From positions 1 to 64,000 of the IMG/VR virus record IMGVR_UViG_3300034166_000463: a DNA stretch of 64,000 bases; one strand, 5' to 3'. Made by a program: the position numbers and the translations under genes. Source of the stretch: a virus. The notes under the pieces were generated by a model. The model made no database searches. It was given only the letters and a program-made list of their open reading frames with translations, and was not told where the DNA came from. Below, piece after piece: positions 6,183 to 7,316 of this stretch; position 1 is the first letter of the stretch, and every line of letters begins with the position of its first letter.

Positions 6183-6426
6183 ACTAGATCGAATGCTTTT
6201 TATTTACGCTCTTAATGGAGTGATAAAATGTTACTCAGACCAAGAGCTTCAAGAAGTAGAAGCAAAACTCTTAGATGAAGGATGGAAGCACACCGCAACC
6301 ATTGACCCAGCGCGATGGATTGAAAACATAGCAAACGGAAATGACGATCCAAGCGACATGCTGGATGAACTGCAATTCTCACCTACGAACGCAATAGGTA
6401 AGGCACGGGCGGACAACGCCACCTAG
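6169..6426 (+). CDS. Unknown 85-residue protein
   Basis: The open frame is longer upstream but ATG 6169 (MRTIKLDRMLFIYALNGVIKCYSDQELQEVEAKLLDEGWKHTATIDPARWIENIANGNDDPSDMLDELQFSPTNAIGKARADNAT) gives a natural start with a short overlap of the previous stop. The sequence is a small helical domain with no motif I know. The final ~10 codons turn GC-rich and lead into an attC-like palindrome, so the 3' end may have been replaced when cassettes arrived. Confidence 0.55.
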   Translation: MRTIKLDRMLFIYALNGVIKCYSDQELQEVEAKLLDEGWKHTATIDPARWIENIANGNDDPSDMLDELQFSPTNAIGKARADNAT

Positions 6427-6504
6427 CCACAAAATCAAACTATCTAACTACATGGAAACTCCGACACACACCGCCCCGCACGTTGACCTCAACCGACTTG
6501 TTCG
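6386..6504 (+). repeat. attC-like site C (weak)
   Basis: CGAAC (6386-6390), 5-nt spacer GCAAT, GGTAAGG (6397-6403) pair loosely with CCTCAACC (6487-6494), 5-nt spacer GACTT, GTTCG (6500-6504). The stop codon of the preceding ORF (6424-6426) lies inside. The arms pair less well than in the sites at 6926, 12354 and 12685. Confidence 0.35.
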
Positions 6505-6676
6505 GCTTTGGGAGTTGCTTCGCTACAATCGCTACACCCTATTCGCCAGAATCGTCTGGCGACCAGTTACCGGAGATGAAGGCGACTCATGGCTCCAATC
6601 ATGGCGGAAATATCGAATGTCATGGCAAACCGCGTGGGACGTGGCTTGCGTGATTTATCCTCTCCCGAACGATTAA
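6452..6676 (+). CDS. Small GC-rich cassette-like protein (74 residues)
   Basis: METPTHTAPHVDLNRLVRLWELLRYNRYTLFARIVWRPVTGDEGDSWLQSWRKYRMSWQTAWDVACVIYPLPND. Trp/Arg-rich, no family recognised. Its GC content is clearly above that of the flanking genes. The first ~18 codons run across an attC-like arm (CGACTTGTTCG at 6494-6504), and the stop TAA (6674-6676) falls 4 nt after another CGAAC arm, the placement seen in integron cassettes. A start inside or after the arm is possible. A nearby ORF at 12223 shares a WRPV(D/T)G word. Confidence 0.5.
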   Translation: METPTHTAPHVDLNRLVRLWELLRYNRYTLFARIVWRPVTGDEGDSWLQSWRKYRMSWQTAWDVACVIYPLPND

Positions 6677-6779
6677 ATCCTCCTGCAGCCCGTGAACGCC
6701 ACTCCGCCACTCCCTGAGCCTCCTAGCCACGCCACCGCTGAACTGCGGGGCGGTGGGCATAGGTCTAGCGACTTGTTCG
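6666..6779 (+). repeat. attC-like site B
   Basis: CGAAC (6666-6670) pairs with GTTCG (6775-6779). The inner stem CCACCGC (6732-6738) pairs perfectly with GCGGTGG (6750-6756). The right arm reads AGC-GACTT-GTTCGC, as in site A. The stop codon of the preceding ORF lies just after the left arm. Confidence 0.45.
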
Positions 6780-6937
6780 CCATTGTCGCCAAATGGAGGA
6801 AAGATGCCGAGATGCACCGCAACTCATGCCGACTTCAAGAGCAGGCAGGCAGGCGAGACAAAGCCGACAGGCACTATCAACGAAGCCTAGACCTCGACGC
6901 CTGTGCAAAGTGCATTGAGGATTTGGCGAACGCCTAG
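6692..6937 (+). CDS. Small GC-rich cassette-like protein (81 residues)
   Basis: GTG start at 6692; the N-terminal ~25 codons (MNATPPLPEPPSHATAELRGGGHRS) cross attC-like site B, so true translation may begin later. The body (AIVAKWRKDAEMHRNSCRLQEQAGRRDKADRHYQRSLDLDACAKCIEDLANA) is a helical, TPR-like chain with a Cys pair. The stop TAG (6935-6937) lies inside the 5-nt spacer and L arm of attC-like site A, exactly where integron cassette ORFs tend to end. No family recognised. Confidence 0.55.
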   Translation: MNATPPLPEPPSHATAELRGGGHRSSDLFAIVAKWRKDAEMHRNSCRLQEQAGRRDKADRHYQRSLDLDACAKCIEDLANA

Positions 6938-7056
6938 CTCTGGCACCCTCACCACTAACTACGAAAAAACTATGCAAACCGAAAACGATACATCGAAGCC
7001 CGAAGACTCACCCCGACAAGAGACTGGTGAGGGTTGCTCAGGAGCGACTTGTTCGC
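6926..7056 (+). repeat. attC-like site A (strong)
   Basis: GCGAAC (6926-6931) pairs perfectly with GTTCGC (7051-7056). Each is separated by a 5-nt unpaired spacer (GCCTA; GACTT) from a second stem, GCTC (6937-6940) with GAGC (7042-7045). Inside, CCCTCACC (6946-6953) pairs perfectly with GGTGAGGG (7026-7033). This R-spacer-L ... L-spacer-R layout is that of integron attC sites, though the outer boxes are not the canonical RYYYAAC/GTTRRRY. Confidence 0.55.
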
Positions 7057-7316
7057 GTCTCTTCCGAGTGCAAGTGACCTTCGACACGGTGATCTACGCC
7101 GAAGACGAAAAGGCCGCAAAGCAAAAGGTGAAATACGGCACGGGCGAAATCGACGACATGCCCATATCGGTGCTGGCGATGCCGATAGAATCCCGCGACG
7201 GGCTACCCGCAGGATGGAACGCGGGATGCCTGCCGTGGGGTGATGCTCCCGAAAACACGACCATCGGGGAAATTCTTAACGCGAACTTATTGTTCGGTTT
7301 TTCATATCCCTCTTAA
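6972..7316 (+). CDS. Small GC-rich cassette-like protein
   Basis: From ATG 6972 the product has 114 residues, beginning with a low-complexity acidic stretch (MQTENDTSKPEDSPRQETGEG) that lies within attC-like site A. An in-frame GTG at 7068, 12 nt after the site, would give an 82-residue protein starting at the first beta strand (VQVTFDTVIYAEDEKAAKQKVKYGTGEIDDMPISV); this is a more natural domain start. The fold resembles short phage/cassette beta-alpha proteins with VxxTVxxxAEDExxA. Near its end is a collapsed palindrome (7282-7296). No function assigned. Confidence 0.55.
   Translation: MQTENDTSKPEDSPRQETGEGCSGATCSRLFRVQVTFDTVIYAEDEKAAKQKVKYGTGEIDDMPISVLAMPIESRDGLPAGWNAGCLPWGDAPENTTIGEILNANLLFGFSYPS
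7282..7296 (+). repeat. Collapsed attC-like arm pair
   Basis: CGAAC-TTATT-GTTCG brings the two outer boxes of the attC-like sites together with only 5 nt between them, just before composition returns to AT-rich. It could be a deleted remnant of the cassette's own site. Confidence 0.3.

Follow-up and report, generated by a model that had tools for sequence, protein, structure and literature searches.

Gene cassettes with reversed reading frames, probably belonging to a phage-adapted integron, in an IMG/VR virus record

A stretch of 64,000 nucleotides (the window) from a 70,641-base IMG/VR virus record (IMGVR_UViG_3300034166_000463, labelled G000) carries three small ORFs head to tail, at 6452-6676, 6692-6937 and 6903/6972-7316, together with a repeated 11-mer and palindromes resembling the attC sites of integrons. 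The locus raises the question of whether these are integron-like gene cassettes in a phage, as an initial annotation proposed from the letters alone, and, if so, where each cassette begins and ends. The window holds three copies of the 11-mer CGACTTGTTCG and no more, starting at 6494, 6769 and 7045, against a mean of 0.03 in shuffled sequences, none of which (0 of 100) held three. Since it is read in three different frames of the three ORFs, it is a DNA element, as first proposed, and a protein motif was rejected as its meaning. The higher GC content reported for this region was borne out (0.46-0.49 across 6001-8000 against 0.42 on both sides), and the palindrome at 6926-7056 has the architecture described for it, with outer boxes, unpaired spacers and paired inner arms; the stop codons at 6674 and 6935 sit just past left boxes. 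The genes at 6452-7316 gave no protein family at useful scores, blastn of positions 6300-7400 against 50,697 phages returned no match, and an Rfam scan of the window found nothing besides two tRNA genes, tRNA-Cys and tRNA-Met (19912-19987 and 59443-59516).

Folding of the single strands, suggested as a check on the palindromes, gave a divided result. The palindrome at 6926-7056 folds better than shuffled sequences (z of -2.5 and -2.4), and the sites at 6384-6506 and 6664-6781 fold no better than shuffles (plus-strand z of 0.48 and 0.09). A further site at 12353-12473 folds weakly, with a z of -1.42.

Elements of about 130 nt of this kind were found between different ORFs in viral contigs. A protein search of viral contigs with the third ORF (ORF 3) yielded ten loci, in six of which the match is limited to the first 21-31 residues, the portion between the ATG and roughly the palindrome's right arm. 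Longer matches were obtained in L124 (residues 1-105) and in L127 and L128 (residues 1-80, at 46%); L133 matches at residues 52-89 only and looks unrelated. Using nhmmer with the three window elements, further copies were identified, and all three element types occur elsewhere. The first is paired with another ORF in contig 3300037882_001354, the second is homologous to an attC in L129/L130 (E 7.6e-23), and the third recurs with its ORF as a unit in contig 3300043394_000228, with other neighbours on both sides; a long cassette array lies in contig 3300033508_000213. The same arms were thus searched for and found beside unrelated ORFs in other viral contigs, and the proposal survives on this point. 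Within attC families, different cassettes have 70-130 nt of similar sequence in common, and hairpin arms align poorly in a MAFFT alignment of the elements. In a 14-mer scan of viral contigs, most of the matches listed were taken as chance. The search of host genomes that had also been suggested came back empty, as the ORF 3 protein and a 19-mer of the attC had no match in 84,980 bacterial and archaeal species genomes.

To chain cassettes backwards from a terminal attI-like motif, a test written as our own scripts was employed. In the unit layout that emerged, the ORF part opens at the right box GTT.., its opening bases recur at its close as a reverse complement, and each unit is followed by AACG, where another attC comes next, or by AACAG at the terminus. 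From 143 motif occurrences the test gave 26 arrays, 14 with at least two cassettes and 8 with at least three, against 1, 0 and 0 for reversed sequences (115 occurrences) and 0-2, 0 and 0 for six Markov shuffles. Only the chained test separated real from reversed sequence; a looser first attC scan separated them poorly, with 196 sites with a body in real and 126 in reversed sequence. Chance repeats were rejected by these controls together with the 11-mer shuffles. Including six array ends seeded by hand and not from the attI motif, the total is 32 arrays in 24 records with 91 cassettes, 71 of them unique, and the longest chain has ten cassettes. Cassette calling demanded a complementarity of at least 6 nt between a unit's own arms, and two of 93 cassette entries were dropped for want of a left box. 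The arrays are not all independent, because some records nearly duplicate one another (G005/G006, L254/L260, L255/L257, L259/L261, L251/L263).

In the window, three cassettes stand head to tail at 6390-7285, one at 12359-12688, and an array end at 1-187, all on the plus strand. The main array begins at the 3' end of a conserved phage gene of unknown function, here called gene X (6172..6426, plus strand), whose 3' end, reading ..CACCTACGAAC up to 6390, adjoins the array and whose stop codon (6424-6426) now lies inside cassette 1. The left box AAC at 6388..6390 would be cut as AA/C, equivalent to G/TT on the minus strand, by the logic of the shared-cassette breakpoints discussed below. Among 50 homologous viral loci of gene X, L178 carries different cassettes beginning at the same gene X nucleotide, L194 at the corresponding point, and in L182 an array with an attI-like motif lies further downstream. 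Neither a cassette nor an attI motif was found within the range searched in 47 of the 50, and no intact empty counterpart of the window's own array site was found among them. Fragments of gene X also occur in L226 and L227, amid another repeated-box family (GCCTAACG.. / CTTGTTGGGC), possibly a further cassette system.

Cassette 1 (6390..6669) was placed by its boxes and consists of an attC at 6384-6506, with right box GTTCGGC at 6500..6506, and the ORF 6452-6676, which starts inside it; its own-arm complement is k=6 and its stem score 13. Cassette 2 (6670..6930) has an attC at 6664-6781 with degenerate inner arms and right box GTTCGCC at 6775..6781, followed by the ORF 6692-6937 with a GTG start inside that attC (k=8, stem score 0). 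Cassette 3 (6931..7285) has the best-formed site, an attC at 6925-7057 with right box GTTCGCG at 7051..7057 and a stem score of 27, and then the ORF 6972-7316, whose final codons extend into the right flank. The left-type box AAC that closes it, at 7284..7286, is followed by phage sequence, TTATTGTTCGG, and not by an attI motif, so that a rearrangement at this right junction is likely.

The isolated cassette 4 (12359..12688) consists of an attC at 12353-12473 and the ORF 12409-12687, with k=7 and stem scores of 20 and 18 in two calculations. Directly after it, degenerate attC-like arms at 12687-12810 with right box CCGGGTTC stand ahead of the ORF 12704-13228, which suggests a decayed cassette. 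Positions 1..187 hold the 3' portion of the terminal cassette in an array that runs off the start of the record; this cassette ends at an attI-like site, AACAGCTAAGATCACTGACGCGCAGCGTTCACCGCATCGACCTGTTC, at 186..240 (plus strand), the same motif that follows the last cassettes in other contigs. The same cassette occurs in L178/G017 and in L259, followed in G017 by another cassette and in L259 by the attI motif, as in the window. Since the other end of the record likewise lies in cassettes, from 69,759 onward, the assembly probably broke within a variable array. Beyond the window, at 70274-70516 of the record, an end box at 70429 is followed by further coding sequence without attI, an apparent cassette fusion; a relative in L251 differs.

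Where a cassette begins was read from cassettes shared between different contexts. G005 and G008 have a common left flank (917 nt) and a common intI side but differ in how the cassettes that both carry are ordered. Breakpoints were looked for in nine pairs of shared cassettes. In seven pairs the sequence following the cassette's own left box differs, with the switch at AAC; in four the sequence differs ahead of the left box of the attC upstream, and that attC itself is kept; no right-box breakpoint was seen in any of the nine. One side reaches the end of its contig in two pairs, and the breakpoint is not visible in L251/L258. For G000/G001, automatic extension halted 30 nt above the right box, where the loop differs; the end at the left box is letter-identical and the whole attC 0.90 identical. 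Across contexts the upstream attC is 0.90-1.00 identical against 0.33-0.56 for what comes next, apart from a single value of 0.88, where the next neighbour is a similar one; in four pairs the upstream identity is low because left ends were misplaced in L258, L259 and L261. This pattern identifies the attC plus its downstream ORF as the mobile unit and places the crossover at AA/C of the left box (G/TT on the other strand), to within the shared core letters. The initial annotation had taken each palindrome as the end of the upstream ORF's cassette; on this evidence it starts the cassette of the downstream ORF, with the crossover in its left box.

The geometry of the hairpins bears on the same question. 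Of 72 unique attCs, 64 reach a stem score of 14, and the eight below it were dropped from the geometry counts; of the window sites, those at 6929 and 12357 pass, while those at 6388 and 6668 score 13 and 0, so that the window array has a weak or missing inner stem at two of its three attCs. The spacer measures 4-6 nt. Extra unpaired bases occur on the right arm of all 64 well-paired attCs and on the left arm of 16. The distance between the spacer and the first extra base is 3-4 nt in 57 of 64 sites, and A occupies the second in 48 of 59 when read on the intI strand. Canonical attCs carry extrahelical bases on the L'' arm. Spacer and extrahelical bases determine the choice of the bottom strand and hence the orientation of the cassette, according to the available part of PMC8946536. 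The box consensus differs: only 4 of 91 crossover boxes fit the canonical GTTRRRY / RYYYAAC, which was rejected as a description of these sites, and the fourth base of the crossover box is C in 73 of 91 (GTTC-type).

If the cassettes were canonical, with the ORF first, the attC after it and crossover in the right box, the window would be an ordinary integrase-less attC cluster. The location of stops at left boxes agrees with this, and the own-arm complement (a mean of 8.0 nt against 4.2 nt with the neighbouring pair, in 70 unique cassettes with G006 excluded, a contrast partly built in because cassettes were selected at a complementarity of at least 6) is compatible with either polarity. Against it, shared cassettes retain the upstream attC and differ downstream, breaking at left boxes; the extra bases lie on the wrong arm; and the last cassettes join attI through a left-type box. 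The polarity of the initial annotation was rejected by the shared cassettes, and we consider the canonical reading very unlikely. An ORF upstream of its attC, in the same sense and readable from Pc, was not found in these arrays, where the ORF comes after the attC. Because breakpoints, hairpin asymmetry and intI/attI geometry agree, every ORF runs opposite to its direction in a canonical cassette: seen from intI, the polarity of attI and attC is canonical, and each ORF is reversed and points toward attI.

An integrase was sought by profile searches, and the integron integrase family TIGR02249 matched seven of 50 records. Six of them (G005, G006, G008, G014, G015 and G016) cover most of the model, with E-values of 4e-60 to 8e-55; the match in G013 is partial and was rejected as a different recombinase. 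TIGR02249 is the best family for these proteins, yet all hits stay under the threshold curated by NCBIfam (194 against 265 bits). The G008 protein has about 40% identity to IntI1, and among solved structures V. cholerae IntI comes closest to it (2a3v, E 1.4e-32). Four of the phage proteins conserve R, H-x-x-R, H and Y, which we take to be the catalytic residues, together with the stretch PWYWLFPSQ. An AlphaFold model from four sequences reached a pLDDT of 40.6 and was excluded from the evidence. The order array-attI-intI was read in five records (G005, G008, G014, G015 and G016), with intI downstream of the array and its 5' end adjoining the attI-like site; in G008 the last left-type box lies at 15304 and the start of the protein at 15355, a distance of some 50 nt. 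Among the IntI contigs, G015 encodes a major head protein, portal and terminase, G008 gives weaker terminase and tail matches, and G016 (3300036945_000763) has a portal and a transposase match (PHROG 310) and might resemble a transposable phage. The attI-like motif comes after last cassettes, as at 186-240 of the window, and was found in 14 stretches of viral contigs. Additional attI-like ends with short arrays occur at G005:20689-22197 (plus strand), at G008:29024-29516 and in G011, in IntI-bearing or related contigs, and therefore one phage can hold several array sites.

No integrase gene was found in the window record by these profile searches, nor was there a match in G017 (73 kb), the closest relative found, in which attI-like motifs follow three arrays. 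The two are also alike in a very long gene, a single ORF of 5098 aa at 21612-36908 (minus strand) in the window and one of 5353 aa in G017. Such a record could in principle have its short repeats shuffled by phage homologous recombination without any site-specific recombinase, and an Erf-like single-stranded DNA annealing protein is encoded next door, downstream of the array (7722..8312, plus strand; PHROG 155, E 4.4e-45), while the similarity within attC families would offer 70-130 nt for annealing. The breaks, though, fall at AAC, a core of 3-4 nt, also where the two attCs belong to separate families; every unit retains its own terminal complement of 6-10 nt; intI lies beside related arrays; and the conserved geometry of extrahelical bases has no role in annealing. 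Shuffling by homology alone is accordingly highly improbable. That the units stand outside any integron, as small mobile elements in their own right or as ordinary phage morons sharing a conserved 5' leader, is barely credible: the R-box consensus does differ and the attC class is assigned here by boxes, stem score and extrahelical-base geometry, but chains of as many as ten units terminate at attI-like sites near IntI-like genes.

The variant class of attC-like palindrome foreseen in the initial annotation is thus upheld by chained arrays, attI-like ends, nearby intI and attC-type hairpin geometry. Our preferred reading, to which we assign a probability of roughly 0.86, is that these would be cassettes of a phage-adapted integron in which each attC is followed by its ORF and the ORFs are inverted; unit boundaries, shuffling, polarity, hairpin geometry and intI beside attI in related phages are all legible in the sequences themselves. 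The chemistry we infer is that an IntI-family tyrosine recombinase, encoded by related phages, would fold the ORF-sense strand of the attC into a hairpin and join the left box of the attC (G/TT on the other strand) to attI or to another attC. An upstream phage promoter, and not an integron Pc, would probably transcribe the array, since the array stands in line with phage genes of the same direction. As the window record has no integrase, the enzyme would have to be supplied to this phage in trans, presumably from the host or a co-resident phage.

Translation signals fit into the same organisation. In 48 of 71 unique cassettes the longest ORF with an ATG begins within the cassette's own attC and runs through the right box; in the other 23 it begins outside the attC. 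By a second measure, the main open frame spans the right box in 54 of 71 with its first ATG in the attC in 32, and its stop lies past its own left box in 63. Typical ORFs end in AAC GCC TAG, where another attC follows, or in AAC AGC CAA GAT CRS TGA at attI; all three ORFs of the window array begin in their own attC. In most cassettes the start codon, along with the N-terminus, would come from the attC loop, and the stop codon from the attC or attI that follows. A Pfam scan of ten hand-picked cassette proteins identified N6/N4 DNA methylases in five and gave no match for the other five, and any benefit of such cargo to the phage would be presumed. On balance we lean towards a wider interpretation, in which a phage lineage would have reversed the integron: cassettes would join the promoter-distal end of a phage operon, the attC would also act as a 5' leader that brings a start codon and an N-terminal peptide, and the next site would give the stop, so that each capture would re-stitch neighbouring reading frames. 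Phages lacking an integrase, this one among them, would keep attI and cassettes and use the integrase of another element.

Integrons, integrase-less attC clusters and DNA methyltransferase cassettes have been described in temperate and virulent phages, and phage attCs were recombined by IntI1 in a laboratory assay, as given in the available text of Qi et al. (Qi et al., 2023; PMC9892861). From the same portion, that study used standard attC models on 10,705 NCBI phage genomes and found junctions G/TTRRRY, and most of the complete integrons it describes derive from bacterial integrons (PMC9892861); the arrays reported here differ in mostly GTTC.. boxes, inverted ORFs and gene starts in attC. 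A search of the literature by title and start of abstract found nothing on inverted-ORF arrays, gene starts in attC or integrons in uncultivated virus collections. Phage integrons are thus already published; what appears new is the polarity, the start of genes within attC and boxes of the GTTC type.

The reverse integrons of Treponema denticola are similar in that intI and cassette ORFs run in the same direction, and there, as we understand the part of PMC4909258 available, the integrase gene alone is turned round, whereas here the cassette ORFs are turned round, the intI/attI geometry is usual and intI lies downstream of the array. The attI1 site likewise carries a start codon that aids translation of cassette genes, in ORF-11, which in the sections available of PMC8876359 is a separate short ORF of attI1; here the cassette gene's own start codon lies in its own attC. 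With the class 1 and V. cholerae integrons, as outlined in the accessible part of PMC8946536, these arrays share an IntI homologue, attI, attC hairpins, a central spacer, extrahelical bases and the array organisation. In those integrons the choice of strand places cassettes in the orientation in which Pc expresses them (PMC8946536, same portion), and integron reviews hold this choice essential for cassettes to land Pc-readable, whereas here the opposite ORF direction appears to arise from the same strand logic. Such phages may maintain a phage-to-phage cassette pool, often of DNA methyltransferases, and searches based on RYYYAAC/GTTRRRY may miss such cassettes. Reversed genes on a retained strand logic, with starts encoded in attC and stops in adjoining sites, would separate the rule of recombination from the rule of expression, each of which can be tested.
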